Shown: positions 5,189-23,769 of the stretch, in pieces | Position numbering within the stretch: the stretch's first letter is position 1 | Layout: the number at the start of each line of letters is the position of its first letter | DNA from: a virus | Strand: one strand, 5' to 3' | Virus record (IMG/VR): IMGVR_UViG_3300028761_000003 | Span: 1 to 26,015 of that record | DNA: 26,015 nt | The notes under the pieces: generated by a model | Databases searched by the model: none | What the model was told of the DNA's origin: nothing | The model's input: only the letters and a program-made list of their open reading frames with translations | Translations under genes and position numbers: made by a program

Positions 5189-8091
5189 GCAATAGCTGTC
5201 ACAACGCCGGACTTTCTTTTATTTAAATGATGTGTTGTGACAGACTTCTGTTCTGTTGTTCCGAGAAACTCGAATACCGGCGCGGCGCGTTGTTGATGAC
5301 GCTTGCGGATGCCTGTAGTGCGCAGGCGCGCTCGCTCGACGTTGACCAGCCGGTAGACGCGTACGCGCTTCCCTCCTTCAACCCGCTGCTGCTTCCCCTC
5401 AATCCCGACGCCGATGCTGGCGAAGAGCGCGCCGATGAACGACATCGGTTTTGCTCTGAAGTCCGCGCGCGCCTTGATCCCCAGCGCCGCCTGAATCAAC
5501 AGCCGGTTCCGGTCAACGAGATCGAGAAACTCTTCGGTGATTGCAATTTCTGCACCCTCTTCGATGCGCAGCCGCAGCGCGGCGAGGAGCGCGTTGAACC
5601 AGATTGCGAACAGCGCAAACCGGTTGCGGTCGGCGCTAAACCGTCGCGTCGTCTCTATCTCATCCAGCGCTTTTGCAATTTCTGCGTCCTCCACCGCCGC
5701 GAACCGCTGCGCCTGCCCGTATGCGCCTTTCTCGTCATCGAGCGCCAGATCGGCGTCAACCTCGATCCCGTACCGCTCCTCTAACTCAACCTTCCGTTCT
5801 GCGTCGCGCTTCTGTTCTTCCGTCTGCGCCTCGTCCGGCGCGGGCGCGCTGGCGATGCGTTCCGCCCGCGCCCGCTCTTGCGCTTCTCGCCGTTCGCGCA
5901 ACGACTTCGCCAGTTCGCGACGACGGTCGCGCGGCAGCAGCGGTTGATCGCGGTCATCCCAGATCTCAACGCCCTCAGCCGCATACGCGCCGACGAAGTT
6001 GTTGAAGAAGTCGTTCTTCTGCGCCGCAGTTTTGGCTTTGACGACGCAGTAGAGATCGAGGTACACGCGATCCCATTCCGTCGCCGGTTCCGCCGCGCCG
6101 GATGCGCGCGAAACGCGGAAGTCGGCTTCCAGTTCGCGCAGTTTGGCGAGGTCGCGGTACGCTTCGGGCGAAGTCGGTTCGTTCATCTTCTTCGTCTCGA
6201 CGTACACGTTGATCTCGCGCTCCAGCGGGTTGCGGATGCGCCCCAACTGCTGGCGGAAATCATCCACATCGCCGACGCCGACGCCGTTGCGCGCGATCCC
6301 GAACAATGCGAACCCTTCCACATCAATTGAGACGCCGGTGCCGACCGACGGCGAATAGATGAAAATATCAACATCTTTGAGAATATCGTTGATGCGCTCC
6401 AGCGTTTCGTTGTTGTTCTCGCTCGTTTCTGCCGTAATCTTCAGTATCCGCGCCTCCGGCGCGTACTGTCGGTAGAACAGCTCGGCGCGGTCGGCGTCGG
6501 CGCGGGTGTTGCACGCGAGCGCGATTTTACACTCGTTGGGGTCGTACCATTCTAATGATTTTTGGAGTACGTCTTCCGGCGACGGCAGCAGTACGAGGTG
6601 GTCAATTGCGCGGTGTGCGTACTCGTTCTCGACGTAGGCTATCGGCTGGTCGGGGAATGCGGATTGAATAAACGTCAACGTCGCCTCGCCAACGTCGGCG
6701 TCGGCGAGGATAATCAGGCGCGCTTTGCGCAGATGCTCCATCAGCGCCCCGACTGCCGAGACTTTGCGGCTCTTCAGATTGCGGTCGTTGACGATTGCCT
6801 TCAGCACCTGCTCGATCTCGTCGATAATAACGAGATCGTAGGGCGCGTCGGTCTCGATTTTGTCGAGACTGTGAATAGTTGTGGCGACGCGCGGGGCGTT
6901 CGTGATCCACTTCCCGTCTTCGTAGTACGGCGTCAGGTTGAGCCGCGCTGCGCTCTGGCGCACCAGCGAGACGCGGTGCCCGACTGACAGCACGCGCGGG
7001 TAGCACTTCGCGGCTTCCGCCAGCCACTGGGTTTTGCCCGTCCCTTTCGCCGACCGAATGACGACAATGTTGGGGTACTGGTCATCCGGGTCGATCTCAA
7101 TATCGAGGTAGCGTTGATTGATGCGCATCGCGTCGGGCAGTTCCGGTGAGACAACGTACCCGCCGCGCAGACCGGGAACTGCGCCCTCAAAGCCGTACTT
7201 GCGCGCGAGGTTGATCAGCACCCCGATGTTGCTCTCGACGCCTTCCGGCTTCTGGTGCTTCTCCCAGTCGTATGTCCAGCCGTCCAGCACCTCAGCCGCG
7301 TCCTCTTCCGAAAGCGCAGACTGAATCGCCCAGACCGCCGCCAGCCACATATTGTACTCCAACCCGTCGCCGGGAATGTATTTCAGCAGCGTCTCGATGG
7401 TCTCGCGCGTCGCCGCGCCGCCGACGCGCCTTGGCGCGAGCAGCGGGCGACGGGCGAACGCGGCGAAGTCGCTCAGTTCGTAGTAGCGGTCGCTGTTGCG
7501 GATGACGGCGACGGGCTTCTTCTGCGGGCGCTGCTTCCAGTTGTAACTTCCGACGACGCGAATCGACCGCGCGGCGTCGCTCGTATTGTCGAGCGTCCAG
7601 CCGTAGCGCGCCGCCGCCAGTCGCAGTTGCGCCTCGACGCCCGCTTGCACCGGCGCAACGTCGTTGACCCACTGCGGCGCGCGAAGCGCCCATATCGGCA
7701 TCAGTCCGTTTCCGGTGTGGACAATAAGCGTTGGCTCAGGCAAGCCGCTTTCGTCGATGATTTTCAACGCGTCGTCTTTCGATGCTGGGAGTGCGTTCTT
7801 CGCGTGCGCGGCGGATTGGATATCGATATCCGCGGTGATCACGCGCTGGTAGTACGCCAACTCAGCGCTCCCCGACGATCCGCGCTCTGGTTGCGCGTAC
7901 TGCGACGCGCGCTTGATGTAGATGTCGTATACAAGGTGATTCTCGATGTGTTTGACGATCTCTGCGCGCTGCGAGAGGCTGAACGTCCGGCAATCAAAAC
8001 GACCGTCCGCGCGTTTGACGCTGACGGTCGTATAAGCGGCGGCGTCATCGCCGTACAGCAAGTCTAAGAAATCCGCAAATGAGATGGACAT
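5185..8091 (-). CDS. Primase-helicase replication initiator (CyRepA1/RepB-like)
   Basis: The 968-residue product joins two enzymes. The N-terminal part resembles an archaeo-eukaryotic-type primase. It has Asp88-x-Asp90 (TADIDIQ), His125 (IVHTGNG) and an Arg/Asn/Lys segment near 175-186 (ARSIRVVGSYNWK). A PriCT-like helical linker follows at about 229-300. The second half is a superfamily 2-type helicase like origin-binding proteins and CyRepA1 plasmid initiators. It has Walker A SAKGTGKT (347-354), DEIE (424-427) and a motif VI-like QQLGRIRNP. A charged coiled region (about 700-800) and an unassigned C-terminus complete it. The last residues, roughly SVTTHHLNKRKSGVVTAIA, are encoded by a 44-bp repeat. 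The start is ATG 8091 behind GGAGGGAGGAAGGAG. It is the first gene of the replication operon. Confidence 0.85.
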   Translation of the reverse strand: MSISFADFLDLLYGDDAAAYTTVSVKRADGRFDCRTFSLSQRAEIVKHIENHLVYDIYIKRASQYAQPERGSSGSAELAYYQRVITADIDIQSAAHAKNALPASKDDALKIIDESGLPEPTLIVHTGNGLMPIWALRAPQWVNDVAPVQAGVEAQLRLAAARYGWTLDNTSDAARSIRVVGSYNWKQRPQKKPVAVIRNSDRYYELSDFAAFARRPLLAPRRVGGAATRETIETLLKYIPGDGLEYNMWLAAVWAIQSALSEEDAAEVLDGWTYDWEKHQKPEGVESNIGVLINLARKYGFEGAVPGLRGGYVVSPELPDAMRINQRYLDIEIDPDDQYPNIVVIRSAKGTGKTQWLAEAAKCYPRVLSVGHRVSLVRQSAARLNLTPYYEDGKWITNAPRVATTIHSLDKIETDAPYDLVIIDEIEQVLKAIVNDRNLKSRKVSAVGALMEHLRKARLIILADADVGEATLTFIQSAFPDQPIAYVENEYAHRAIDHLVLLPSPEDVLQKSLEWYDPNECKIALACNTRADADRAELFYRQYAPEARILKITAETSENNNETLERINDILKDVDIFIYSPSVGTGVSIDVEGFALFGIARNGVGVGDVDDFRQQLGRIRNPLEREINVYVETKKMNEPTSPEAYRDLAKLRELEADFRVSRASGAAEPATEWDRVYLDLYCVVKAKTAAQKNDFFNNFVGAYAAEGVEIWDDRDQPLLPRDRRRELAKSLRERREAQERARAERIASAPAPDEAQTEEQKRDAERKVELEERYGIEVDADLALDDEKGAYGQAQRFAAVEDAEIAKALDEIETTRRFSADRNRFALFAIWFNALLAALRLRIEEGAEIAITEEFLDLVDRNRLLIQAALGIKARADFRAKPMSFIGALFASIGVGIEGKQQRVEGGKRVRVYRLVNVERARLRTTGIRKRHQQRAAPVFEFLGTTEQKSVTTHHLNKRKSGVVTAIA
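5198..5241 (+). repeat. 44-bp inverted-arm repeat, copy A (inside primase-helicase)
   Basis: Arms GTCACAACGC and GTGTTGTGAC enclose a 24-base core containing CTTTCTTTTATTTAAAT. The arms pair with one G-T wobble, and CT/AG extend the stem outward. Read on the minus strand, this copy encodes most of the last 19 residues of the primase-helicase and ends 10 bases before its stop codon. Confidence 0.9.
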
Positions 8092-8136
8092 ATCTCCTTC
8101 CTCCCTCCTAACCCGACGTCTACTACACCAAGCCTG

Positions 8137-8165
8137 ATCTTACCACACAATTCCCCGCTTGTCAA
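8137..8165 (-). promoter_or_regulatory. Promoter of the replication operon
   Basis: On the minus strand, TTGACA (8165-8160), a 17-base spacer ending in GTGG, and TAAGAT (8142-8137) stand about 46 bases before the primase-helicase start. TGG directly before the -10 adds an extended -10 contact. It is back to back with a plus-strand promoter, 26 bases between the two -35 boxes. Confidence 0.8.
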
Positions 8166-8191
8166 GCGGTTTGCAAGATGAATTTCGACGC

Positions 8192-8220
8192 TTGGCAACC
8201 GGGCGGGTGTGTGGTATAGT
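8192..8220 (+). promoter_or_regulatory. Plus-strand promoter, divergent partner
   Basis: TTGGCA (8192-8197), a 17-base spacer ending in GTGTGG, and TATAGT (8215-8220) drive the small plus-strand gene at 8251. The design is almost the same as that of its divergent partner. Confidence 0.8.
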
Positions 8221-8250
8221 AAGTGTGCAATATCAACTCTGGAGTTGTCG

Positions 8251-8396
8251 ATGTCGAAATTTGGCGAATCAACGACGGCGACTGGCTCGCTGACGCGCTT
8301 GTTGATGTCGGGAGCTGTCGGCGATTACGTCGGGGCGAGGGGGAAACGCCGATTGAGGCGTTCGTCAACCTCGTCTACGACATCCAGCGCTACTAA
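8251..8396 (+). pseudogene. Small IWKG-family-like gene with start and frame out of phase
   Basis: An ATG at 8251 follows GGAG with six bases between, but the frame it opens gives an unnatural Ser/Thr/Arg-rich peptide running to 8430. The protein-like frame begins one base back, at GTC 8253, and reads VEIWRINDGDWLADALVDVG, then ETPIEAFVNLVYDIQRY before TAA at 8394-8396. The IW near the start and the helical end resemble the small proteins at 25289 and 25457. The in-frame GTG at 8223 lies upstream of the likely transcript start. One missing base after the ATG would explain this, either as a true mutation or a sequence error. Confidence 0.5.
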
Positions 8397-8446
8397 TCTG
8401 ACGCTCATCTTAAACATCCAGCGTTTCTGACCGCCCCCGCCGTCCC

Positions 8447-8482
8447 GCGCCTCAACCGCCCGCTGGGGCGCGCTTCGTTTTT
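8447..8482 (+). terminator. Likely rho-independent terminator
   Basis: GCGCCTC (8447-8453) pairs with GGGGCGC (8465-8471), with one G-T pair, and is followed by GCTTCG and TTTTT. It would end the small plus-strand transcript. It overlaps the 3' end of the minus-strand gene 8452-8613. Confidence 0.5.
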
Positions 8483-8613
8483 CTTGCCCGTCGCCCTCGC
8501 TCGATGCGCGTCACCAGCAGCAGCGCCACCGCCGTCGCCGCTACTTGCGCCGCGTCGGGATGCACGAACGCGAGGACAAACGCGCTGATCAGCAGAAAAA
8601 TGTCGATCTTCAT
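8452..8613 (-). CDS. Small two-segment membrane protein, holin-like
   Basis: This 53-residue protein begins MKIDIFLLISAFVLAFV, has a short turn (HPDA), a second hydrophobic stretch (AQVAATAVALLLV) and a strongly basic tail (RIERGRRARKTKRAP). Two membrane segments plus a charged tail is the layout of small class II holins. GAGGAAGG lies just before the ATG, which overlaps the stop of the previous membrane-protein gene. It ends the endolysin gene cluster. Whether it or the neighbouring gene forms the lysis pore is open. Confidence 0.65.
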   Translation of the reverse strand: MKIDIFLLISAFVLAFVHPDAAQVAATAVALLLVTRIERGRRARKTKRAPAGG

Positions 8614-8939
8614 TTCCTTCCTCGTTCTATAAACGCAGTAATCTTATCTATCAGAACCGGCAGCAGCGTCGGCGCAACGACCCCCGCAATGAATGGGATG
8701 TAGCCAGAGTAGCCGACCAGCACGCCCGCTCCCGCGCCGACCAGCACGCGCCCCAGCGCGCCTAGCTCGATGCTGTTCTGCTCTCGGTCGTATCGCGGCA
8801 GAAACACCTCGCCGTTGGTGTCCGCGAGATACGCCGTCGCCGCGCCGATCGCGCCGAAGACCGCGTTCCAGAGATAGTCGAGCGCGGTCAGCCCGGCGTG
8901 ACCGGCAGCCAGTAGTTGGAAGATTTCAACGATGTCCAC
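8610..8939 (-). CDS. Hydrophobic membrane protein next to endolysin, holin candidate
   Basis: The 109-residue product has a hydrophobic N-terminal half (LDYLWNAVFGAIGAATAYLA) and a hydrophobic C-terminal half (GRVLVGAGAGVLVGYSGYIP, then FIAGVVAPTLLPVLI). It ends in charged residues (ERGRK). A polar loop lies between. It starts at GTG 8939 with GAGGAG seven bases upstream, inside the end of the endolysin gene. Its position suggests a holin or related lysis protein; the sequence is not a clear member of a named holin family. Confidence 0.65.
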   Translation of the reverse strand: MDIVEIFQLLAAGHAGLTALDYLWNAVFGAIGAATAYLADTNGEVFLPRYDREQNSIELGALGRVLVGAGAGVLVGYSGYIPFIAGVVAPTLLPVLIDKITAFIERGRK

Positions 8940-9408
8940 TTCGCTGCTCCTCTGCTTGCCAGCGTCTGATGATCGCTACTACAAAATTCGCGTAGCGTTC
9001 CGGGTCGTTGCCGTCGCTGGACGGCGCGTAGCGCGGCAGCACTTGCCGCAAGCGGCACAGTCCGCGTCGTTTGCAGTAGTGCTCTTTGAGCAACTCGCAC
9101 CAATCATTCAAACCGTCCACCCAGCGCGCGTAGACTGCGAACGGGTGCGGCGTCTGTGCGATCATCCGCTTGCCGCGCCGCAGATTGCCCCAGTTGCGCG
9201 TGCGCACTGCGACGCCGCGCAGCCCGAAGCTGCTTTCTTTTGCGAAAAACGCCAACGCGATGGCGCGATCAGCGTTCCAGTAGTCTAGCGCCGCAAGCAG
9301 CGCCTCGGTTTCGACAAACGCCGGGCTGCGCGCGGCGCGCAGTACGCGCCGGAACGTCGCGGCGCTGATGCTGTGCGGCGCGAAGATGAGCGGATTATCG
9401 TCAATCAT
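8926..9408 (-). CDS. Endolysin, glucosaminidase/lysozyme-like
   Basis: The 160-residue enzyme has the marks of the glucosaminidase (FlgJ/LytD-like) lysozyme group, which cuts the glycan strands of peptidoglycan at lysis. Glu58 in FFAKESSFG fits the catalytic acid. RNWGNLRRG (71-79), FAVYARWVDG (90-99) and YAPSSDGNDPERYANFV (127-143) are typical of the family. No signal peptide is seen, so it should need a holin to reach the wall. ATG 9408 is preferred over GTG 9414 because the GTG lies within the Shine-Dalgarno GGAGG. Confidence 0.85.
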   Translation of the reverse strand: MIDDNPLIFAPHSISAATFRRVLRAARSPAFVETEALLAALDYWNADRAIALAFFAKESSFGLRGVAVRTRNWGNLRRGKRMIAQTPHPFAVYARWVDGLNDWCELLKEHYCKRRGLCRLRQVLPRYAPSSDGNDPERYANFVVAIIRRWQAEEQRSGHR

Positions 9409-9420
9409 ATACACCTCCCC

Positions 9421-12095: not shown

Positions 12096-14360
12096 TCAGA
12101 CCCTCCCGAAGCGCGCTAGGCGCGTAAGGTTATCGATTTCACTGCGCACCATCAACGCTAACCGCCGCTCGTCCATCCCAGGCGCGGCGTTGATAGTAAT
12201 CCCGCCGACGTTGACGGTTGATGTTGCTGGTTGCGCGGTCACCGCGTCGCGGGTGAGCAACGGCAGCGGGGCCAGCCCCTCGGTCAACCCGCGCAAGATG
12301 CCTTCTGCAAGCGGCATCCCGACATCGCGCGCTGCGACGCGCGACGGCGAGCGGATGCCCAACGTACGTTTCGCCGCATCGAGCGCATCCTTCGCCGCTT
12401 TCGCCGCCGCTTCCGCTAGTTTGCGCGCAGCGTTCTCTACGCCGCTGCGTATTCCGTCGATCAACGCTGCGCCGAGCGCTGGCGCGTTCGCAATCGCTTG
12501 ACGGAACGCGCTCTCCAGGCGCGGGTACAGTGTGTTGAACAGCGACGAGAGCGTATTCATCAAATTTTCCGCAGACGCGCGTATGCCATTCCACAGCGCT
12601 TCAGCGACGTTTTTGATCGCTGTCCAAGCAGAGCTCCAGTCGCCGCGCAGCGCGGCGGTTCCCGCCTCGAACAGTCCGCGCAACACCGCAAGCGCGGTTT
12701 CGGTCAATATCTTGATCTGATTCCACGCGAACCGCGCAACTGCGGTGATTTCGTTGCCGAAATTCGCCCACACCCACTGCGCCGCCTTCGTCAGCGCCTC
12801 GATTGCGGCTTGAATAAATCGCGCCGCTGCGGCGACGACGCTCATAATTCCCGACCAAGTGCGTTGCGCAAACGCGAGAATATCAGCGCCGTGCTCGTTC
12901 CAAATTCGCGTCACAAACGCCGTCGCAGCTTGCACTGCTTTCTGCGCCGCCGTAAGCGCAGTCTGCACCGCTGACTGCACCGCGCTCCACGCGGTCTGCG
13001 TCGACGGCGCAAGCGCGGCGCTCAGCGCGTTCCACGCTGCGAAGATCACAGCCGCAGCGCTGGTGATCATCTGCTGGACGCTGCCGGTCGTCACCCCCGC
13101 CAGCCCGATCTGTTCCGCCAGCGCTGCAACGGGATCGGCGGCGCTAAGGATGCCGGAAGTCCACGCGGTGAAGGCGTTGACGCCTTCCGCCGCAGCCGCG
13201 ACTAACTGCGTCAGATGCGGCAGCAGTGCACTGCCGACGGTTATCTGAAGCGTCTCCACTGCCGCGTTGAACTGGTCAAGCGTAAATTTGTACCCTTGCT
13301 GCATCGTTGCAGCCGCGGCCGCAGCGCCGCCCGCATCCTTCATCGCCTGCCCCATCTCGTTGAATCCTTTCGCGCCCGCGCCTGCAATCGCGGCAGCGGC
13401 GCGGATTGCGTCTGATCCGAATATCGTATTCAACGCCAGAAATTTCTGCTCTTCGCTGAGGTTTTTCGTCGCTTCGTGCAGCAGTTGCGCCGCCTTCTCC
13501 ATTCCGACGAAACTGCCCGTCGCGTCAAAGAACAACGACTTCCCGTCCTTCGTCGCCAGCCCCAACTTGATCATCATTTCCGTTGCGTCTTTGGTCGTTG
13601 GGATCAGGCGCTGGAGGAAGGTCTTCATTGACGTACCGGCATCGGCGGCGCTGCTGAAGGACGGCGCGATGAGCGCCATCGTCTGCACCGTTTCCTCAAA
13701 CGACAATCCGGCAACCTTCGCGCTGCCGCCGACGTTCGCCAGTCCGAGCGCGAGTTCCTCAACGTCTACCGTACTCGCATTTGCTGCGGACGCCAGAAGG
13801 TCAGCGACGTTCGCGGCGGTTACTCCCGTCTCGCCCCAGACGCCAAGTTGTTTGGCGACAATCGTTGCAGCGTTGGCGAGATCGAGTTGCGCCGCCGCTG
13901 CAAGCGCCAGCGTCGCGTCGGTCGCGCCGGTCATTACGTCTTTAACGTCGACGCCGCCTTTGACGAGTTCGGTCATCGCGTCCAGCGCTTGCTGTGCGCT
14001 GAACTGCGTTGACGAACCGAGTTCAAGGGCTTTCGTTTTGACATCATCAAACGACAGCCCGGCTTTCGTCAGCGAGTCGCCCGCGACGGCTTGGAACTTG
14101 AAGAGCGCGCTCTCGAAATTTGCTGCGACATCGACGCTTGTGCGCAGTTGATTTCCGAGCGCAGCGATGCCGGTCGCAGCCAGATTGACCGCCGCCGCGC
14201 CGATCTGCCGCAGCGCGCCGACCGCGACTTGTTCGAGCGCGCCGAACGCGCCGCGTTGCGCGTCAGCGGCTTGCCCGACGCCGCGCACGTTCTGGGCGAC
14301 GCGCTCGAGGACGCCGCTTGCGGCGTCAACCGCGCTCAGTTTGATGACGACATCGCTCAT
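12096..14360 (-). CDS. Tail tape measure protein, TP901 type
   Basis: The 754-residue protein shows the TP901-type tape measure core. This includes LELGSSTQFSAQQALDAMTE (about 112-131), further helical Ala-rich segments and MKTFLQRL (about 245). The rest is Ala-rich helix with two hydrophobic stretches and a low-complexity end. Tape measures set tail length; by the usual rule of about 1.5 angstrom per residue the tail would be near 110 nm. No lytic domain was recognised. ATG 14360 overlaps the stop of the chaperone frame before it. It is one of the safest calls in the window. Confidence 0.95.
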   Translation of the reverse strand: MSDVVIKLSAVDAASGVLERVAQNVRGVGQAADAQRGAFGALEQVAVGALRQIGAAAVNLAATGIAALGNQLRTSVDVAANFESALFKFQAVAGDSLTKAGLSFDDVKTKALELGSSTQFSAQQALDAMTELVKGGVDVKDVMTGATDATLALAAAAQLDLANAATIVAKQLGVWGETGVTAANVADLLASAANASTVDVEELALGLANVGGSAKVAGLSFEETVQTMALIAPSFSSAADAGTSMKTFLQRLIPTTKDATEMMIKLGLATKDGKSLFFDATGSFVGMEKAAQLLHEATKNLSEEQKFLALNTIFGSDAIRAAAAIAGAGAKGFNEMGQAMKDAGGAAAAAATMQQGYKFTLDQFNAAVETLQITVGSALLPHLTQLVAAAAEGVNAFTAWTSGILSAADPVAALAEQIGLAGVTTGSVQQMITSAAAVIFAAWNALSAALAPSTQTAWSAVQSAVQTALTAAQKAVQAATAFVTRIWNEHGADILAFAQRTWSGIMSVVAAAARFIQAAIEALTKAAQWVWANFGNEITAVARFAWNQIKILTETALAVLRGLFEAGTAALRGDWSSAWTAIKNVAEALWNGIRASAENLMNTLSSLFNTLYPRLESAFRQAIANAPALGAALIDGIRSGVENAARKLAEAAAKAAKDALDAAKRTLGIRSPSRVAARDVGMPLAEGILRGLTEGLAPLPLLTRDAVTAQPATSTVNVGGITINAAPGMDERRLALMVRSEIDNLTRLARFGRV

Positions 14361-14566
14361 CGACGCTTCTTCCGCTGATGTTCCGCCGTAATCGCTTGAT
14401 AGCGCCGTTCAGCGCGCAACGCAGCGAGATGCTGCGCCACGCGCTGGAGCGGAAGTCGGTCAAGCGCGTCAGGCGGACAGTGGTAGATGTCTCTGCACAA
14501 CACCAACTCAGTGTACGCCGCGGGCAGCGGCGCGAGGTCGAACAGACCTAACGCCGTCGCCCGCAT
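14357..14566 (-). CDS. Tail assembly chaperone, downstream (T-like) frame
   Basis: This short frame lies between the chaperone gene and the tape measure gene. As a free protein it would start at ATG 14566 (69 aa) or GTG 14569. It has no clear Shine-Dalgarno site of its own. It is more likely made by a -1 frameshift at GGGAAAC (14578-14572) as the tail of a longer 219-residue fusion, as with gpG/gpGT in lambda. It ends in the basic string EHQRKKRR. Confidence 0.7.
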   Translation of the reverse strand: MRATALGLFDLAPLPAAYTELVLCRDIYHCPPDALDRLPLQRVAQHLAALRAERRYQAITAEHQRKKRR

Positions 14567-15015
14567 CACTCGTTTCCCTCATTACCGACGCTGTCGAAGA
14601 TTTTCTTCAGCAGCAGCGCGGCTGCGGCATACGGCTCATTGAGAATATCCTCGCCGTAGGCTTTGACAAGCAACGTTTTGGCGACTTCGGGAAACGCGAT
14701 TTTACGTTCGCTCGCGTCCAGAAACTGATGATACTCGCCGAGCGTGATCTCGCCGACTGCGGGCGTCAACCCCGCTACCCGCGACCGAATCGCCTCATCC
14801 GGCTCGAAGATTTGCGGCAACACCCGTTCGTACACCGCCTTTAGCGCCCGCAGCGGGAACTGATCCGCTTGAGCGCCAATCGCCTTCCGCACCAGCCGCG
14901 CCACCACCGGCGCGGTCAATTCGTTGTTGAGGATAGTCGCGGCTTCGCGGATTGTCAGCGCGCTGCGGTCGACGCGGATTGCTTCGATGTCGTAAATCTC
15001 TGTCGGTTTGGTCAT
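14566..15015 (-). CDS. Tail assembly chaperone, upstream (G-like) frame
   Basis: The 149-residue, mostly helical protein lies between the tail tube gene and the tape measure gene. That position and size are those of the G-type tail assembly chaperone, which binds the tape measure protein during tail building. It starts at ATG 15015 behind AAGGAG. Close to its end the in-frame slippery heptamer G GGA AAC allows a shift into the next frame. Sequence similarity to a named family was not evident; the call rests on gene order and frameshift site. Confidence 0.8.
   Translation of the reverse strand: MTKPTEIYDIEAIRVDRSALTIREAATILNNELTAPVVARLVRKAIGAQADQFPLRALKAVYERVLPQIFEPDEAIRSRVAGLTPAVGEITLGEYHQFLDASERKIAFPEVAKTLLVKAYGEDILNEPYAAAALLLKKIFDSVGNEGNE
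14572..14578 (-). promoter_or_regulatory. Predicted -1 programmed frameshift site
   Basis: The minus-strand heptamer GGGAAAC is in the zero frame as G GGA AAC, one codon before the last sense codon and stop. After a -1 slip the next codons are CGA GTG ATG, which enter the downstream frame exactly. Lambda uses GGGAAAG at the same place. Confidence 0.8.
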
Positions 15016-15027
15016 ATCATTCTCCTT

Positions 15028-15546
15028 TTACGACGCTGGGTTGAGGTTGGTCGGGTTCGATGCAGCGATCGTGTATTGACGCAGCGACGGCGTTCGCACC
15101 GTCACCATCGCAACGTAGGGTTCGGCGTCGCTTGGATCGAGCGCGCTCAGCGTGACGCTGGTGATCACTCCCAACCCAAACGTTGTTCCGCCGTCGTTGC
15201 TTGTCCCGTACGCCCGCGCCGAACCGACGAGACCGCGCGGCGACCAGCGCACGCCGAGAGTCGGCGTGGCGCTTTGGAACCGGTTATACATTGTGTTCAC
15301 CGCAGACCCGGTATCCTCGTTGTACAGCACAGTAATTGTGATCTCGACCGGCTCGCGCTTGCCAACGGTGATCGTCGCATAGTCGCTCGACCCGCCGACA
15401 TACGCCTCACCCGACGGGCGGCTCAGTTCAACGTCGTCTATCTTCACCGTTGCGTTTGAGATCGCCGTCCAGGTTGTGTTGTCGGTCGTGATTTCGACCG
15501 CAAACGTTCCCGCGTACAGCGATCCGACAATTCCAGAATGCGCCAT
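15028..15546 (-). CDS. Major tail tube protein
   Basis: The 172-residue product has the beta-sandwich look of siphovirus tail tube proteins. It begins with short strands (SLYAGTFAVEITTDNTTW), contains a central segment typical of such proteins (TVGKREPVEITITVLYN) and ends with strands and a Ser/Asn/Pro-rich tail. It lies between the tail terminator-like gene and the chaperones, as expected. It starts at ATG 15546 with GGAGG five bases upstream. It should form the hollow tail tube around the tape measure. Confidence 0.8.
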   Translation of the reverse strand: MAHSGIVGSLYAGTFAVEITTDNTTWTAISNATVKIDDVELSRPSGEAYVGGSSDYATITVGKREPVEITITVLYNEDTGSAVNTMYNRFQSATPTLGVRWSPRGLVGSARAYGTSNDGGTTFGLGVITSVTLSALDPSDAEPYVAMVTVRTPSLRQYTIAASNPTNLNPAS

Positions 15547-15555
15547 ATCCGCCTC

Positions 15556-16017
15556 CTACACCGACGGCGCGCGTACCAGGTGTGTAAATCGCGTGGTCAT
15601 CGCAACACCTTCGTATGCGCGCTCGCCGTACTTGATAACATCTATTATCCCGCTTACGTTGACCAACTGCACATCGCCGCGCGCAAGCCAGGCGAAGCGC
15701 AGTTGCGTAACGTAATCCTCGATGTAGTCAACCAACGCCGCCGCCGTATCCGCGACGCCGCGCCCCATTCCGACATCGCGCACCAAGAGCAGATCGTCGA
15801 TCTCCCACACCGCGCGCGTTGCGCGAGTTGGGGTGTACACCCCGCTTTCGACCAGCCGCAGCCCGCCGAGTGCGGGGATGATCCGCACCGGCAACTGCGC
15901 GGCGTCCGACCAGTTCGGTTGTGTTGATAGTCGCCGGACGGGAACGACGGCGTTGTTGTACTGCACCGCCAGCCCCGCCAGCAACTCAATGATGTCGGTA
16001 ACAGAACTAAACAACAT
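15556..16017 (-). CDS. Tail terminator or neck protein candidate
   Basis: The 153-residue protein starts at ATG 16017 (MLFSSVTD), overlapping the end of the connector gene by 11 bases. It holds a helix-strand pattern (LLAGLAVQYNN, then LPVRIIPALGGLRLVESG) and lies between the head-tail connector and the tail tube. Genes in this position usually encode the head closure or tail terminator protein. An upstream extension to 16092 would add a Cys/Arg-rich peptide that does not look real. Confidence 0.6.
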   Translation of the reverse strand: MLFSSVTDIIELLAGLAVQYNNAVVPVRRLSTQPNWSDAAQLPVRIIPALGGLRLVESGVYTPTRATRAVWEIDDLLLVRDVGMGRGVADTAAALVDYIEDYVTQLRFAWLARGDVQLVNVSGIIDVIKYGERAYEGVAMTTRFTHLVRAPSV

Positions 16018-16579
16018 CGCGGTAGCGCTCCAGCGTTGAACGAACGTCATCCGGCAGCGCCGACGGCAGCAGCACCAGCCCGCCGTCCGCAACCGTCGGG
16101 CGATCCGGATCGTTCACCGTCCCGCGCTGGCGGTACATCCACGCCGCCAGCCTGATCGTCGCGTGGACAATATCGGCGGGCGGGGCGATGCTGTATCCCC
16201 AGCGCGCAGTAATCGTCGCTTGCTGCGACGCGCCGCACCAGCGCGCGCCTTTCCGCGCGAGGACGGCGTATGGCGCGTCAGGCGGATGGGCGTCGATTTC
16301 CGTCAGCGGGATCGGCGCGCCGTCGCCGTCGGTCGCACTGACGAGTTGCGCGATATAGACGCCCGACTGCAACAGCAGATAATCCCGCTGCAACTGCGCG
16401 TCCCACAGCATCAACTCGCGCCCGAAACGTCGGGATGACGCTGCTGGCGCAGCGAACGTTTTGCGCGTCATCTGCTCGATGATCGCGGTCGCGCGCACGA
16501 GCAGATCGGTCAGCAGCGCATCGTCTGCGGTTGATGTGACGCCGAGATATTCCTTCAACTGCGCCAGCGTCGCGTACAT
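16007..16579 (-). CDS. Head-tail connector, gp6/QLRG type
   Basis: The 190-residue product begins with MYATLAQLKEYLGVTS, followed by DALLTDLLVRATAIIEQMTR. This is the typical start of phage head-tail connector (gp6-like) proteins. A middle beta region and a C-terminal helix segment (IVHATIRLAAWMYRQRGT) agree. In related phages this protein forms the ring between portal and tail. It lies after the capsid region, as expected. Confidence 0.8.
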   Translation of the reverse strand: MYATLAQLKEYLGVTSTADDALLTDLLVRATAIIEQMTRKTFAAPAASSRRFGRELMLWDAQLQRDYLLLQSGVYIAQLVSATDGDGAPIPLTEIDAHPPDAPYAVLARKGARWCGASQQATITARWGYSIAPPADIVHATIRLAAWMYRQRGTVNDPDRPTVADGGLVLLPSALPDDVRSTLERYRDVV

Positions 16580-16587: not shown

Positions 16588-17001
16588 TCACAGCACCCGA
16601 GTCCAGCCGGACGGCAGCGCCGCCGGGATGTCGCGTCCGGGAAACGCCGAAATCTCGATCGCAATCGAAACCGTCGCCGTACCCGTCACATCAATCTGCA
16701 CAAAGAGATGCGACGCGCGCGCCATCGCTGCGTATGCCTCAGCGCCAGATACGAAAATCTCATACGTCGAGTTCGACGCCAGCGTCGCGATTGTTTTATC
16801 AGTGATCTCGACCGCGCCCGACACGCTGTTGGCAGTGTTGACGAACACCCGCAGCGCCGCCGTTCCCGTCACCGTCCCGGTGTGGGCGACGATCCGCACC
16901 GCCTGCGTGTTCGCAATACTGACGACCGACGTATTTGTATCCGCAGTTACGTTCGCGTTGAAGAACCGCAGCAGCGGTTGAATGGTCTCCTGAACAAGCA
17001 T
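16588..17001 (-). CDS. Probable virion protein downstream of capsid
   Basis: The 137-residue protein is beta-rich, with many Ala, Thr and Val residues (for example VRIVAHTGTVTGTAALRVFV). It contains no cysteine or membrane segment. It lies between the major capsid gene with its three repeats and the connector gene. Capsid decoration proteins and other small head proteins often have this place and composition, but no family match was recognised. It starts at ATG 17001 behind GGAGG with a spacing of about nine to ten bases. Confidence 0.65.
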   Translation of the reverse strand: MLVQETIQPLLRFFNANVTADTNTSVVSIANTQAVRIVAHTGTVTGTAALRVFVNTANSVSGAVEITDKTIATLASNSTYEIFVSGAEAYAAMARASHLFVQIDVTGTATVSIAIEISAFPGRDIPAALPSGWTRVL

Positions 17002-17024: not shown

Positions 17025-17068
17025 GTCACAACGCCAGCATTTCTTTTATTTCTATGCGGTGTTGTGAC
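17025..17068 (+). repeat. 44-bp inverted-arm repeat, copy B
   Basis: Arms GTCACAACGC and GTGTTGTGAC surround a core with TTTCTTTTATTTCTATG. CGCT/AGCG outside the arms also pair. A further GCAT/ATGC pairing inside the core needs one bulged base. Confidence 0.95.
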
Positions 17069-17108: not shown

Positions 17109-17152
17109 GTCACAACACCTGCTTCTTTCTTAATTAAAGGATGTGTTGTGAC
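17109..17152 (+). repeat. 44-bp inverted-arm repeat, copy C
   Basis: Both 10-bp arms are perfect. The core is the most divergent of the seven: CTGCTTCTTTCTTAATTAAA. A lone half-arm, CTGTTGTGAC, follows at 17161-17170. Confidence 0.95.
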
Positions 17153-17197
17153 AGCCCCGACTGTTGTGACGCTCCCGCCGTCGGCGTCATCAGCAAT

Positions 17198-17241
17198 GTC
17201 ACAACACAGCATCTTCTTTTATTTCTATGCTGTGTTGTGAC
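17198..17241 (+). repeat. 44-bp inverted-arm repeat, copy D (best hairpin)
   Basis: This copy can form a perfect 15-bp stem, GTCACAACACAGCAT with its complement, around a 14-base loop CTTCTTTTATTTCT. It lies 11 bases after the major capsid gene stop, so the capsid mRNA would carry this hairpin at its 3' side. Confidence 0.95.
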
Positions 17242-18910: not shown

Positions 18911-18913
18911 TTC

Positions 18914-19270
18914 TCACCTCCCCCTCTCTCTCAGCACCGCGATTGCTTCCTTCTTCGCCGCTTCCGCCGCGTCTCGCACCGACGCCCAACGCCCGGCGTG
19001 AACCCGCGCCTGCGGCATTCCGTAAACAAACCGCGCGTAGGACGCAGTGTTTTCGACGATGCGCGACGTTTTCGACAGTTTCCGCAATCGTAGTTTCTGC
19101 CGCAGATTGCCCGTTCGCCGATACCGCGATCCGGGCGGAGGCGACGGGTAAATTTGCATCACGCTGTGCGCCGCTGCTGCGCCCGCGTCAAGCGCCGCTT
19201 CGATCTGCGCCGCGCGCGGAAGTAATTTGCGCAGCGCGTTGTTGATGTCAACCGAAACGCTAACCCTCAT
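18914..19270 (-). CDS. HK97 gp10-like minor head or tail protein
   Basis: This basic 118-residue protein resembles the HK97 gp10-like group in size and in the segment PPPGSRYRRTGNLRQKLRLR, followed by ENTASYARFVYG. Members take part in head-tail joining. Usually the gene lies after the connector, whereas here it lies between portal-MuF and protease, which is slightly unusual. The start at 19270 overlaps the portal-MuF end by 11 bases. Confidence 0.65.
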   Translation of the reverse strand: MRVSVSVDINNALRKLLPRAAQIEAALDAGAAAAHSVMQIYPSPPPGSRYRRTGNLRQKLRLRKLSKTSRIVENTASYARFVYGMPQARVHAGRWASVRDAAEAAKKEAIAVLRERGR

Positions 19271-21158
19271 CCTTCCTCACCAGTCGCACGCCGCAGCGAC
19301 AGCGAGGATGCGCCGGGGGTCCGCTCAATCCGCCCCAGTCGTCTTCGCGCTTGCTGTGCAGCGCGCCGCAAATCGGACATACCCGCTCATCGTTGGCGGT
19401 CTCCCACACCATCACGTACTCCAGATTGTGTTCGGCGCGCAGCCCGTCGCGGTACGCCCGCACCCCCGCCGCCGCCGCTTCAGTTGCGGCAGTGATGGCG
19501 ACGGTTTCGGCGCGCGCTGCGCCGACCACCGGCTCAATCATTGCAACGAGTTCGGCGCGGTCAGCGCCCGGCATCCGCTGCCAAGCGGCGACCGCGCGGG
19601 CGATGTAGTCGCGCGTGTACGGGTAGAGCAGTTCCTCGACTTGCCGCCGCGTCGCCTCTTCCGCCCAGTCTGCGAGCAGCGCGTCGACGTTGACTGTCAC
19701 GCCGACATCGACGCGCATCTCGTCGGCGAACAGTCGTGCAATCGTTTCGATGTTGCGACGCATCGCGGGATACAGCGCTTCGTTGAACATCTGCGCCGTC
19801 AACTCATCCGCGCCGTCGAGCATCACCTGGCGCAATCTCTGGAACGCGCGCTTGAGGTCGCGGTAAAGTTGAACCTCGTGCGGCAGCAACTGCGGTTCGT
19901 CTTTCTTCAGCGCCTTCACCGCGTCTTCCGCCGGTTCAGCGTTGTTGACGCCCGCCAGTCGCAGCGCTTCCGCCGGGTCAATCCCCGCTGCGACCGCTTC
20001 GCGCGCCAGCGCCAGCCGGTTGCGCAGCCGCAGCAATTGCCGATCCGCTTCGTCTTCAACGAACTGCGGCAAATCCAGCCGCGCCCGCGCTTCGTTCAGT
20101 GTGAGCACCGGCTGCCCGGCGAGCCGCTGGATCGCCTCGGCTTTCTCCAGTTCGGCGTTCTGCACCGCGTCGATGCGCGCTTCGTTGCAGCGCAGCACTT
20201 GGTTGTACGCAGCAAAATGCGGCTGGAGCATCGCCGTCACTTCGCGAGCGCGGGCGAGGATCGTCAGGAGGATAAACGTCTGGTAGTCGCGCATCGCGGT
20301 TGCGTAGTTGCTGGCGCTGCTGAAGACCAAAGACATCGGGACTTGAAACGCGGTCAGCATCAGTTCCGCCGCGCGCTGGAGCAGTTCGGGCTGCATTGCG
20401 TCAGACAGCGTATCCCCCAACGTCACTGTTTTGATCTCGCTCGACAGCGCGAGATGTCTGAATGCGTTGCGGATGCCGCCTACCAGTTGTCGCAGCCACT
20501 GCTCGAACCGCGAGCGTTCGGCGTCCGTCGGGCGCTGGGCGAACATCCAGACGGTGGGGCGCACCGCGCCGCGCTCGAAGTACGCGGTCTGGTAGCGCTC
20601 GGCTGCGAGCAGTGCGCGCGCCTGCGTCAACGCGGTCGTCACCAGCCCGACGCCGGGCTCAACTTCGCTGCGCACTGACGGCTCCCAAATATGCAAGAGT
20701 TCGGCTTCCGGCTCCAGCCGGATTTCGGTGTTGTTCGCGCGGCGCGTAAACCCGACCAGCCCGCGCTTCGGGTCGGTGATCGGGGTGATGGTGCGCGGGT
20801 GCAGACGACGCAGACCGAGCGTCGCTGTCGGGTCGCGCAACAGATACGCCGCACCGTACAAACACAGGTCGATCTCGACGCCGCGAATGATCGCCGCCAG
20901 TCGTTCCGCGTCGAACGCGACCAACGTTCCGCGCCGGGTGACGATCTCCCACGGCAGCGACGCCAGCGCATTGGCGCGCAGCGTCACCGCCGTGCGCACC
21001 ACCGCGACGCGCTCATACGCCGTCTCGACATCAACCGCGTCGCCGTTGCCAGTGAACGCGCCAACCCAACTGGAAGGCAGAAAGTCTTCTAAGTTGAGCG
21101 TTTTTATGTCGTAACGCTCAGTTGGAGACAGCACAAGTTGTGCAGTCGTTCTAGACAT
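19260..21158 (-). CDS. Portal protein fused to a MuF head morphogenesis domain
   Basis: The 632-residue product joins two head proteins that are usually separate. The first about 380 residues match an HK97-type portal: an N-terminal arm, RVAVVRTAVTLRANALASLP, a PTVWMFAQRP segment and NYATAMRDYQTF. This ring feeds DNA into the head. The C-terminal part is helical and ends in the Mu gpF signature TANDERVCPICGALHSK, then PAHPRCRCGVRL, with four cysteines and a histidine. The start ATG 21158 has GAGGTG upstream and overlaps the terminase stop by eight bases. Confidence 0.9.
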   Translation of the reverse strand: MSRTTAQLVLSPTERYDIKTLNLEDFLPSSWVGAFTGNGDAVDVETAYERVAVVRTAVTLRANALASLPWEIVTRRGTLVAFDAERLAAIIRGVEIDLCLYGAAYLLRDPTATLGLRRLHPRTITPITDPKRGLVGFTRRANNTEIRLEPEAELLHIWEPSVRSEVEPGVGLVTTALTQARALLAAERYQTAYFERGAVRPTVWMFAQRPTDAERSRFEQWLRQLVGGIRNAFRHLALSSEIKTVTLGDTLSDAMQPELLQRAAELMLTAFQVPMSLVFSSASNYATAMRDYQTFILLTILARAREVTAMLQPHFAAYNQVLRCNEARIDAVQNAELEKAEAIQRLAGQPVLTLNEARARLDLPQFVEDEADRQLLRLRNRLALAREAVAAGIDPAEALRLAGVNNAEPAEDAVKALKKDEPQLLPHEVQLYRDLKRAFQRLRQVMLDGADELTAQMFNEALYPAMRRNIETIARLFADEMRVDVGVTVNVDALLADWAEEATRRQVEELLYPYTRDYIARAVAAWQRMPGADRAELVAMIEPVVGAARAETVAITAATEAAAAGVRAYRDGLRAEHNLEYVMVWETANDERVCPICGALHSKREDDWGGLSGPPAHPRCRCGVRLVRKDEG

Positions 21159-22362
21159 CAAACAACACCTCAGCGCTCTGCGCCGCGCCCCACACCGCCA
21201 GCGCGAGCGCAATCACCCCATCATCGCGACACCCCTCGGGCGCGCTGTAGCGGACGCGACCGGACGCGCCGATCTCGACGCTGAACATCTCCAGTTCGTT
21301 GAGCAGCCAATCCAGTTCCGGCAGTACGATTGTCCGCTGCTCCAGCGCCAGCGCGAGCGTATCGATCAGCAGCGGCTTGCTGGAGACCGTCGTAGTGAAC
21401 GCCTGAACGGGCAGCCCGGCGCGCTGTAACTCTTCAATATTCGGCGCGCCAATGCTGTTCGCCTCAGCGATCACCGCGCCGCCGCCGTTGCGCTGCCAGA
21501 ACGCAACCAACACGCGGCGCTGCGTTGCAAAATCGACATCAACTAATCGTTCAACGTCCGTCACACACCGCGTCTGCGGATCGAGCGCCGCAAACACCGT
21601 CGCATCCTCGTAGCGTCCCCAGTCTACGCCAATAATCGCCGCTTCGCCGCTGCGGACAATCTCGCCGACACAACTACGAACGTTGCGAAACACCGCGCCG
21701 CCGTCGTCTAAGAACTCGGCATCCAATTCTTGACGCGCGGCGCGCTCGGTCATCGCAGCGCGCAACAGTGCAATATCAGCCGGATCGAGGCGCGGGTTGT
21801 CGCTGGTTGAGCGCCGAATCGTCGCCCAACGCGGGTCGTCAAGCGCGGTCTGGTAAATGCGCCAGAAGTCCCCCTTCCCCTTCGGCGTTCCGGCGAGAAT
21901 CGCGCGCCCGCGACGGTCAAGCAGCGCGGGGATAAGGTTCTCGCGCCAGATTGTTTCGAGATTACGCACCAGTCCCGCCTCGTCTACGACGATCAGATCG
22001 TAGCCGCGCGATCTGCCCGCGTCCTCGTTGTCGAGCGACCAGAACTCAACCCGTCCGCCGGTGGTTGTGTCGATCCGCCGCTCTGCTTTGTACTCTTCCG
22101 CAACCGGCGCACGCAGCGTTCGGCGCACTTGTTCCCACACCGGCAGCATCAGTTTGTACGTCGGCGCGAAATACCCGACCGTCTGCCGCTTCACCAACGC
22201 CGCTTCGACCAGCATACGCGCCAGTAGATGTGATTTTCCCCACCGCCGCCCGGCGCGCAGATGCACGAACCGCGCGCTTCTGATCTGTTCCGCAACCGCG
22301 CGCTGGTCGGCGTGTAGATGAGGAAGGAGCACCTCATACTGTTTTGACGAACGCCGTCTCAT
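21151..22362 (-). CDS. terL: Terminase large subunit
   Basis: The 403-residue packaging motor has an ATPase domain with Walker A GRRWGKS (38-44), Walker B LIVVDE (123-128) and coupling motif AGTP (157-160). It also has an RNase H-like nuclease domain with Asp247 (GVDWGR), Glu300 (IAEANSIG) and Asp380/Asp381 (RDDGVIALALA). It cuts concatemers and pumps DNA through the portal. ATG 22362 overlaps the small gene before it; TTG 22365 is an alternative. Confidence 0.95.
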   Translation of the reverse strand: MRRRSSKQYEVLLPHLHADQRAVAEQIRSARFVHLRAGRRWGKSHLLARMLVEAALVKRQTVGYFAPTYKLMLPVWEQVRRTLRAPVAEEYKAERRIDTTTGGRVEFWSLDNEDAGRSRGYDLIVVDEAGLVRNLETIWRENLIPALLDRRGRAILAGTPKGKGDFWRIYQTALDDPRWATIRRSTSDNPRLDPADIALLRAAMTERAARQELDAEFLDDGGAVFRNVRSCVGEIVRSGEAAIIGVDWGRYEDATVFAALDPQTRCVTDVERLVDVDFATQRRVLVAFWQRNGGGAVIAEANSIGAPNIEELQRAGLPVQAFTTTVSSKPLLIDTLALALEQRTIVLPELDWLLNELEMFSVEIGASGRVRYSAPEGCRDDGVIALALAVWGAAQSAEVLFDV

Positions 22363-22537
22363 CAACGATTACCAATACGTCTCGTTCGGCGTTCGGGCGT
22401 TCCTCAAACTGCGACAGAAACAATCGCGCAGCGGCGACGCGCGCGCTCGCGGGATGCTCGTCGCTGAGGACGATCATCAGCAGCGCGCGCAGCACCGCAG
22501 CGCGGGCTTCGTCTGTCAGCAGTTCGTCTACGGTCAT
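22334..22537 (-). CDS. Candidate terminase small subunit, 67 aa
   Basis: The helical 67-residue protein reads MTVDELLTDEARAAVLRALL, then a segment with ASARVAAARLFLSQFEERP. It overlaps the large terminase gene by 29 bases and the stop of the upstream membrane protein as ATGA. Position and a helical protein-protein pattern suggest the small terminase subunit. The N-terminal DNA-binding helix-turn-helix of longer members is not evident, and 67 residues is short for the family, so the call is tentative. Confidence 0.5.
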   Translation of the reverse strand: MTVDELLTDEARAAVLRALLMIVLSDEHPASARVAAARLFLSQFEERPNAERDVLVIVDETAFVKTV

Positions 22538-22761
22538 TTGTACTTGTAGTACTTCCGGGCGATAGCCTCGGCCTCGGTCTCGCTCAACGGAACGTAATAC
22601 GAAACGCAATACCCAATGATCAACGCCAGAGCCGACTGAACTTCCGCCGACAAATCAATCCCCGCGAACTCGCGCAGCGCCCAAGCGAGGATGACGACCA
22701 TCGCCGCCGCCAGCGCGCCGTAGGTGATTTTATCCAACGGCTGAGAAAAGGGCAGGTTCAC
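22534..22761 (-). CDS. Holin-like membrane protein, first gene of the late operon
   Basis: This 75-residue protein has two hydrophobic segments. The first contains YGALAAAMVVILAWALREF (about 14-32) and the second SALALIIGYCVSYYVP (about 43-58). A charged end follows (ETEAEAIARKYYKYK). The layout and the helix pair ending in YVP resemble short holins of actinophage or r1t type. It is far from the endolysin gene, so a role in lysis is uncertain. It starts at GTG 22761 behind GGAGGAG and is the first gene after the predicted late promoter. Confidence 0.6.
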   Translation of the reverse strand: MNLPFSQPLDKITYGALAAAMVVILAWALREFAGIDLSAEVQSALALIIGYCVSYYVPLSETEAEAIARKYYKYK

Positions 22762-22789
22762 GTAATCTCCTCCTGAACATCTCTCTCCC

Positions 22790-22810
22790 AGCGGGCGCTT
22801 TTCACCCGCT
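22790..22810 (-). promoter_or_regulatory. 5' leader stem-loop of the late mRNA
   Basis: AGCGGG (22790-22795) pairs with CCCGCT (22805-22810) around a nine-base loop. It would lie almost at the 5' end of the late transcript, 50 bases before the first gene, where such a stem often protects mRNA from decay. Confidence 0.5.
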
Positions 22811-22817
22811 CACTTTA

Positions 22818-22826
22818 ATTATACCA
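22818..22826 (-). promoter_or_regulatory. Extended -10 late promoter
   Basis: On the minus strand TGGTATAAT gives a perfect -10 with a TGn extension. The hexamer 17 bases further up (ACGAAA) matches the -35 consensus poorly, unlike all other promoters in the window. It would start the terminase-to-lysis operon and could need an activator. Confidence 0.65.
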
Positions 22827-22873
22827 GGAACACCCCGCGTTTTCGTACGCCAGATCGCGGCGCGGGCGCGGGC

Positions 22874-22917
22874 GTCACAACACATCATCTTCTTTTATTT
22901 CTATAGCGTATTGTGAC
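22874..22917 (+). repeat. 44-bp inverted-arm repeat, copy E
   Basis: The left arm is perfect; the right arm is GTATTGTGAC, with one change. The core ATCATCTTCTTTTATTTCT is close to copies D and G. The 22762-23108 gene-free stretch holds the late promoter, copies E and F, and a terminator. Confidence 0.95.
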
Positions 22918-22994
22918 ACTGCTGCCGATGATTGCAACGACGGGCGAGCGCTCCATTCGGGTGATGCAGCGGACGCGCGGGCGGCGCGGCGAGC

Positions 22995-23038
22995 GTCACA
23001 ACACATCATAGAAATAAAAGAGAAGCAGGTGTTGTGAC
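22995..23038 (-). repeat. 44-bp inverted-arm repeat, copy F (opposite orientation)
   Basis: Both arms are perfect. The core is turned round compared with the other six copies: read on the minus strand it contains CTTCTCTTTTATTTCTATG. It lies directly after a minus-strand terminator and faces copy E across 77 bases. Confidence 0.95.
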
Positions 23039-23044
23039 AGCGCT

Positions 23045-23077
23045 GAACAAACAGAAACCCCGCCGTTATCGACGGGG
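23045..23077 (-). terminator. Minus-strand rho-independent terminator
   Basis: CCCCG (23058-23062) and CGGGG (23073-23077) pair, with further CG pairing inside. Read on the minus strand, the stem is followed by TTTCTGTTTGTTC. It ends the transcript of the small gene at 23321. Confidence 0.7.
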
Positions 23078-23108
23078 CTTCTGGAAGGAGAAGGAGGGGA
23101 ATCGTCTG

Positions 23109-23321
23109 TTACTCGCAGCGTCGCGCGTCCTCGTAGCGTAGCGCCTCGATCAGACGCCGCGCCTCGCTCTCTGTCGATCGCCAGCCGACTGACTCGCCTC
23201 GGTACTCGACCGCGAAATCGCGCGTCTCGCGGTCGAACAGAATACGGAAATCCTCACCCGACGCGACGAGGATTTCGCGCGCGGGGCGCGGGGCTGTTGC
23301 AGAACGTCGTTTGTTGCGCAT
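23109..23321 (-). CDS. Small hypothetical protein, 70 aa
   Basis: This basic 70-residue protein reads as a short beta-hairpin unit (GEDFRILFDRETRDFAVEYR) followed by a C-terminal helix (STESEARRLIEALRYEDARR). Strands followed by a helix starting near a Ser recall the small IWKG family further right, but similarity is weak. It has its own promoter (23356-23384), AAAGGA seven bases before the ATG, and its own terminator. It is a typical small accessory phage gene of unknown function. Confidence 0.75.
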   Translation of the reverse strand: MRNKRRSATAPRPAREILVASGEDFRILFDRETRDFAVEYRGESVGWRSTESEARRLIEALRYEDARRCE

Positions 23322-23355
23322 ATCAGCGTCCTTTCCGGTAATCGACTACGCACTG

Positions 23356-23384
23356 AGTATACCACGCGCACGCCGATCTGTCAA
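23356..23384 (-). promoter_or_regulatory. Near-consensus minus-strand promoter
   Basis: TTGACA (23384-23379), a 17-base spacer ending in GTGG and TATACT (23361-23356) drive the 70-residue gene. The -35 box is 35 bases from that of a divergent plus-strand promoter. Confidence 0.85.
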
Positions 23385-23419
23385 GCCCGCAAAATCGCGA
23401 GAAATTCCGAAATTGCCTT

Positions 23420-23448
23420 TTGACAAACTGCGGGTTGCGTGATAGTAT
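23420..23448 (+). promoter_or_regulatory. Near-consensus plus-strand promoter
   Basis: TTGACA (23420-23425), a 17-base spacer and TAGTAT (23443-23448). TATAGA two bases further is an alternative -10. It drives the small plus-strand gene ending at 23646. Confidence 0.75.
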
Positions 23449-23464
23449 AGAAACGTAATAAACA

Positions 23465-23646
23465 ATGCCGGACGAACCTGCTACGTCTATCAGACATCCG
23501 AGGGCGAGATTATCGTCCGCCTCGTCCGGCGGGCGAGCGGCGTCGGCAAGCCGCACTACAGTTCAGTTTTCCGGTTCCGCAGCTTGGAGGACGCGGCGCA
23601 GAGCGACGAGTTGCGCCCGGCGCTCAAAGATATGCGACTTATCTAA
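23465..23646 (+). pseudogene. Small plus-strand gene with start and frame out of phase
   Basis: A clear protein frame runs from 23446 to TAA 23644-23646. It reads NAGRTCYVYQTSEGEIIVRL from 23464, later VFRFRSLEDAAQSDELRP and DMRLI. It has no ATG, GTG or TTG near its beginning. The only ATG (23465) is one base out and opens a different, Ser/Arg-rich frame. FRSLEDAA matches FPSLEDAA of the 25289 gene, so this is a relative of that family. A promoter and a terminator frame it exactly. One base missing after the ATG would restore it; no Shine-Dalgarno site is visible. Confidence 0.6.
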
Positions 23647-23663
23647 CCGACAACCCGACCGAA

Positions 23664-23701
23664 CCCCCGCACCTCGCACGCGGGGGGGGGGGTTTTCTTT
23701 T
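23664..23701 (+). terminator. Plus-strand rho-independent terminator
   Basis: CCCCCGC (23664-23670) pairs with GCGGGGG (23680-23686) and TTTTCTTTT follows after more G residues. The run of 11 G (23682-23692) can slide the pairing and is a likely place for a length error. Confidence 0.75.
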
Positions 23702-23725
23702 CCCCGAAGTCGCCCCGGTTGCGCC

Positions 23726-23769
23726 GTCACAACACCTCATCTTCTTTTATTTCTACAGCGTGTTGTGAC
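23726..23769 (+). repeat. 44-bp inverted-arm repeat, copy G
   Basis: Both arms are perfect, with core CTCATCTTCTTTTATTTCT. It lies in the 23322-23828 gap, between the plus-strand terminator and a minus-strand terminator. Confidence 0.95.

Follow-up and report, generated by a model that had tools for sequence, protein, structure and literature searches.

Genomic context and copies of the element

The window, by which we mean the whole 26-kb stretch of DNA analyzed here, is an IMG/VR virus record with nearly all genes on the minus strand. It represents a tailed phage in which genes for terminase, portal, capsid, tape measure and a PolA polymerase were recognized, and which also encodes a Cas4-like nuclease and a helicase-primase containing a Herpes_ori_bp-like domain. 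An earlier note on this DNA, made from its letters, had described seven dispersed copies of a 44-bp element with inverted arms, and all seven are present, each of exactly 44 bp (Table 1). Their occurrence is far beyond chance, as exact arms with spacers of 20–28 bases give four matches in the window versus none expected (100 shuffles).

Several details of that description required correction. The 10-bp arms, presented as shared, are not identical throughout: they read GTCACAACGC in copies A and B, and GTATTGTGAC in copy E. The pairing of AGCAT with ATGCT in copy D and the G-T pairs in copies A and B are as described. Placement at gene borders does not apply to copy A, which is located within the helicase-primase ORF (5185-8091, minus strand) and is read there as SVTTHHLNKRKSGVVT. 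The core orientation, regarded as conserved, is the same in six copies of the window and opposite in one, namely copy F, the core of which is AGAAATAAAAGAG on the plus strand; the direction of copy C is weakly defined, since its core is near-palindromic.

Table 1. Copies of the 44-bp element and an additional half-site in the window.
Feature	Coordinates	Strand	Context
Copy A	5198..5241	-	Helicase-primase C-terminal codons, in frame; just upstream of next gene
Copy B	17025..17068	-	Last in capsid array; start codon of gene 16588-17001 (-) follows after 23 nt
Copy C	17109..17152	-	Middle of capsid array; near-palindromic core variant TTAATTAA
Extra half-site GTCACAACAG	17161..17170	-	Spacer between copies C and D
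Copy D	17198..17241	-	11 nt past stop codon of major capsid protein gene; extended stem of 15 bp
Copy E	22874..22917	-	Upstream of TATAAT promoter of gene 22534-22761 (-)
Copy F	22995..23038	+	Core reversed; directly after terminator of gene 23109-23321 (-)
Copy G	23726..23769	-	59 nt past stop of clamp-like gene 23829-24476 (-), directly after its terminator

Copy G is flanked by two convergent terminators, and the part of the capsid-array spacer that holds the additional half-site is conserved in relatives. At the contig end (25889-26015) there is also a perfect 42-bp tandem repeat in three copies (CTGCGGATGCGCCGTATGCG...), which may belong to a coding sequence or reflect an end effect of the assembly.

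Distribution and anatomy

An exact pattern scan over 2.9 million viral contigs of IMG/VR yielded 89 stretches (L007-L095) on 63 contigs, versus 2 loci in a control scan with a spacer of 26; 347 copies were extracted, 165 of them distinct at 44 bp. Longer fragments contain 8–13 copies each, and within IMG/VR they all belong to a single phage clade, no cultured member of which is named in the literature compared. When the arms were allowed spacers of 12–40 bp across all IMG/VR, elements of 43–45 bp were found in the clade, and elsewhere only two were found, at 34 bp. A search of known phages gave nothing convincing apart from one weak chance match, a scan of plasmids gave no copies, and phages with related terminases (36–40% identical) are without multi-copy palindromes. 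The window is without a match above the gathering score in Rfam 15. The possibility raised by the earlier note that the repeat is a common host insertion element found no support in a scan of bacterial genomes, which returned only four unrelated 46-bp palindromes with other centres. One of the contigs (3300028820; PMC9600594) was obtained from a mat in Yellowstone with a temperature of 62.7 °C, and the remaining source sites are probably similar, as can be inferred from the sample series.

In gene sense, the consensus of the element is GTCACAACAC-N4-TATAAATAAAAGAAG-N4-GTGTTGTGAC, with T or G at position 17. An asymmetric centre rich in A/T, TATAAATAAAAGA, is thus flanked on either side, at a fixed distance, by a 10-bp half-site (GTCACAACAC), the two being inverted relative to each other. 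The arms and the centre are nearly fixed and both 4-base spacers are free; copies start with GTCAC and finish with GTGAC. Core-bearing copies are 43, 44 or 45 bp long (8, 314 and 8 copies, respectively), and no other length occurs. A degenerate mini-element, GTCACAACA-GAA-GTGTTGTGAC, in which the centre is lost, was found in the capsid intergenic region of three phages (contigs 3300031830_000061, 3300031958_000008 and 3300031950_000280), at the same spacer junction in all of them.

Fixed sites across the clade

Phages of the clade carry 2–5 tandem copies in the intergenic region that follows the capsid gene, the first 7–12 nt past the stop and the last usually 19–24 nt before the next start; the distance from the copy corresponding to copy B to this start is about equal in 44 of 48 relatives. 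The earlier note had named relatives devoid of the repeat at the same sites as evidence against its reading. In a search anchored on the capsid gene, and therefore unbiased by the element, all 51 clade loci with enough sequence have an element directly after this gene, and such relatives were not found inside the clade. The in-frame site at the helicase C-terminus is occupied in 11 of 11 relatives, and the site of copy E, in either orientation, in 31 of 32. In the case of an FtsK/SpoIIIE-like gene located outside the window, each of 14 genes carries three in-frame copies, once four, in linkers. Remaining copies lie after terminators, before promoters, or just upstream of ribosome-binding sites, about 17 of them 12–39 bp upstream of clear sigma-70 promoters. 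Tail and polymerase genes have no copies. Among clade loci neither clean empty sites nor target duplications were seen, which agrees with the lack of a target-site duplication noted earlier, and at the single new site (L082, L064) the change does not amount to a clean insertion. Judged by these comparisons, the sites are old and fixed across the clade.

The FtsK/SpoIIIE-like translocase has an N-terminal membrane segment and extra AVTTP half-sites in its linkers, and is encoded by a phage of roughly 30 kb; an example is found on contig 3300031878_000003 (sense coordinates 14221-16078).

Such a translocase, together with the helicase-primase, brings to mind a replication, segregation or packaging site, bound by the helicase-primase as an origin or priming site, or serving the FtsK-like protein. 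Inverted boxes around an A/T-rich centre resemble the sites of origin-binding proteins, the phage helicase matches Herpes_ori_bp (PF02399, 9.9e-9) and the PHROG annotation 'replication origin binding', and the FtsK/SpoIIIE-like gene is not only encoded but itself carries the element. However, the Pfam match spans the helicase region and not a tested DNA-binding domain, and the clustering of copies at gene borders, with the tail and polymerase genes free of them, speaks against such a role; nor does a replication site predict an orientation tied to transcription, as described below. We regard this explanation as distinctly improbable. A chi- or KOPS-like 8-mer was rejected separately, as GTCACAAC/GTTGTGAC occurs at about chance frequency away from elements and is in excess only near them.

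Selection on the nucleotide sequence

Copies that pass in frame through genes allow the constraint on nucleotides to be separated from that on amino acids. In the 14 FtsK-like genes, which together hold 43 copies, the arm codons GTC ACA ACA ... GTT GTG have fixed third positions in 15 of 15 columns, whereas only 21% of the 136 four-fold columns with a conserved residue outside the arms are fixed at the third position. The codon running past base 44 varies, and variation is back at base 45. Frozen silent positions in the arms and the return of variation at base 45 indicate that selection acts on the nucleotides as such and that its target ends at a precise border. Comparative genomics alone thus reveals selection at the nucleotide level, with base-exact borders, through coding sequence, which makes the element an unusually clean case.

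The strict length, the fixed sites and the frozen silent positions lend strong support to the preference expressed earlier for protein binding or RNA function over a decayed insertion. Decay of an insertion or MITE is ruled out by the occupancy of the capsid, helicase and copy E sites and by the silent-position constraint. The silent-position constraint alone does not separate a DNA from an RNA function, and the general claim that the element is a selected cis-acting site is much safer than any specific role.

Polarity

The orientation of the element depends on where it lies. Among distinct variants, the ratio of orientations is 104:1 in transcribed places and 20:22 in terminator/promoter gaps (p 1e-13), so that the conserved orientation proposed earlier holds only for the former. 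The sole exception among the former is copy C of the window, with its near-palindromic centre. All 16 copies with a ribosome-binding site just downstream point one way, and the arms of reversed copies are no less well preserved than those of the remaining copies. This contrast suggests that the site matters directionally to transcription, although the orientation lock could alternatively reflect, wholly or in part, common ancestry, the demands of coding or a tendency to avoid U-rich RNA. A late promoter (TATAAATA) is not favoured as an explanation of the element: many copies are followed by host-type promoters (TTGACA/TATAAT), and at such places either orientation occurs.

Pairing of the arms and the inner stem

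The earlier note suggested selection on hairpin pairing, and our results separate the inner stem from the arms in this respect. Among 347 copies there are 57 distinct departures from the arm sequence, all of them one-sided and none compensated, which favours recognition of the sequence over mere pairing. Variation at position 35 is found mostly in coding copies, in which C10 remains unchanged even when the pair is lost. The inner four pairs behave differently in the capsid array. With one method applied throughout, covariation amounts to z 5.4 in the first copy, half of the variants of which are fully paired, to z 3.0 in the middle copies and to z 0.8 in the copy before the next gene, versus z -0.2 at coding sites and z -0.1 in terminator/promoter gaps; a weak signal (z 2.5) is seen in unclassified '-' copies, and all these values overstate significance, since the sequences are related. 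The earlier suggestion of selection on pairing is thus only partly borne out.

These data bear on the possibility that the element acts as an RNA hairpin, in which a stem of 10–15 bp and an A-rich purine loop shape or protect mRNA, mainly the end of the capsid message, with the same device used elsewhere. In agreement with it, all copies fold better than shuffles (z -9.9 for the capsid intergenic RNA), the inner pairs covary in the capsid array except in the copy before the next ribosome-binding site, and the orientation is locked in transcribed places. On the other hand, a loop of 24 nt should tolerate insertions and deletions, yet the length is fixed; the arms lack compensatory changes, copies of both orientations in terminator/promoter gaps keep their arms, and FtsK-like coding copies lie in the middle of ORFs without inner pairing. 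The fixed loop length and the well-kept reversed copies in the gaps favour recognition as DNA, and we find an RNA hairpin as the general function unlikely.

Possible recombination at the elements

Of 1100 cases in which similarity between relatives breaks off, 302 have the break within an element at both ends, while elements with their margins constitute 2.6% of the sequence. The elements could accordingly be recombination linkers or selfish palindromes at module borders that swap and multiply cassettes, passively or by means of a recombinase. The left and right halves occur in many combinations, the core at a given site can be found reversed, additional copies appear together with their spacers, and in one subclade the accessory genes are separated by elements. 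Nevertheless, the sites are fixed across the clade, with no clean empty site or duplication seen, copies within a genome are no more alike than copies from different genomes, and the silent-position constraint would call for either a function or highly efficient conversion. Of the genes that were scanned, none was recognised as coding for a recombinase. An enrichment of breaks would be expected for any repeated 44-bp intergenic homology; as any such homology attracts recombination, we take the breaks as a consequence of the repeats or as a rival function. Strand exchange at the element would look the same here as homologous recombination, from which it cannot be told. We consider a primary role in recombination unlikely; if it were true, the elements would show how the borders of phage modules are maintained. 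Concerted evolution was likewise rejected because of the equal similarity of copies within and between genomes.

Three further observations concern the surroundings of the elements. In relatives, the segment between copies E and F (22918-22994), upstream of gene 22534, corresponds to the first capsid-array spacer in reverse complement; the sharing of this spacer with the capsid array (ACTGCTGATGA...GGAGTACTAC...GGGTGA) indicates that the element and its spacer form a larger repeated unit. Contig 3300031830_000078 and positions 1-3300 of locus L077 contain a cassette-like accessory region with elements about 610 bp apart, between which small paralogous genes (IWKG family, like those at 24972 and 25457 of the window) lie on the opposite strand. 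The product of the window gene 832-1395 (minus strand) is weakly similar to resolvases of Holliday junctions (PHROG 244, E 0.017), and could act on cruciforms at palindromes.

Proposed function

The explanation that fits most of the observations, and which we tentatively prefer, is that the element is a directional 44-bp site at the borders of transcription units that is read by a protein, in a manner resembling stoperators. A phage protein would bind the element as double-stranded DNA, with one contact per arm and one at the centre, and such contacts would account for the fixed length of 44 bp. The bound protein would act directionally on transcription at unit boundaries. Next to promoters the element would be operator-like, with either orientation working, while inside operons it would be a polar roadblock that works in one orientation only. 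The sites of the capsid array, especially the first of them, may also serve as mRNA hairpins. The location of copy G between convergent terminators is odd for an operator.

The fuller proposal of a phage-wide regulatory network, in which a 44-bp dyad of a kind not described before, with a directional centre, would be read by a novel protein family as a promoter operator and a polar roadblock within operons, would pass in frame through protein linkers and would serve as an mRNA hairpin after the capsid gene, is doubtful as a whole. Scans of PHROGs, Pfam and NCBIfam recognised no cognate repressor or integrase, and many of the small genes are matchless; a candidate binder (29-481) gave no useful family match and a poor structure model (pLDDT 45). 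The 44-mer offers a concrete bait for a DNA-binding protein of thermophilic mat phages.

Comparison with known systems

Palindromes of 20–40 bp located at transcript ends and sometimes within genes are known as REP/BIME sequences (PMC3733652). In contrast to these, the element described here is without the GTAG/CGTC tag, occupies fixed sites and is found only in phages. No RAYT-like transposase was recognised among the clade phage genes scanned, and a classification as REP was rejected.

The element is similar to the lambdoid boundary or linker sequences and to integron attC in that module borders and recombination breaks coincide with repeats; it differs from attC, the length of which is variable, in its fixed length. 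Identity with attC was rejected, as the arms GTCACAAC/GTTGTGAC do not fit the GTTRRRY/RYYYAAC core and no integrase was recognised in the genes scanned.

In the case of HSV oriS, inverted protein boxes surround an A/T-rich centre. The element shares this arrangement, and the phage encodes a related helicase domain, but the element is present in about 11 copies at gene borders.

Start-associated sequences (SAS) are short repeats that closely precede the starts of genes and in some cases are accompanied by an inverted repeat. In cluster K mycobacteriophages, SAS and extended SAS have been named (PMC3203893). The element differs from them in sequence and size, and it is also located after terminators and in coding regions, with one exact length.

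The closest parallel appears to be with the stoperators of cluster A mycobacteriophages (L5, Bxb1, TipsytheTRex), of which 20–30 copies lie scattered over a phage genome, both at promoters and within short stretches between genes, and which are oriented with transcription (PMC6550527, PMC9283540). The element is likewise present in many dispersed, mostly intergenic copies and in one orientation relative to transcription, which is mixed only in the gaps. However, stoperators are 13–14 bp long, lack dyad symmetry and are bound by a repressor monomer, whereas the element has 44 bp, 10-bp inverted arms and an asymmetric centre, and some of its copies run in frame through genes. The element may serve to test whether a stoperator-like logic also arose outside actinobacterial phages.
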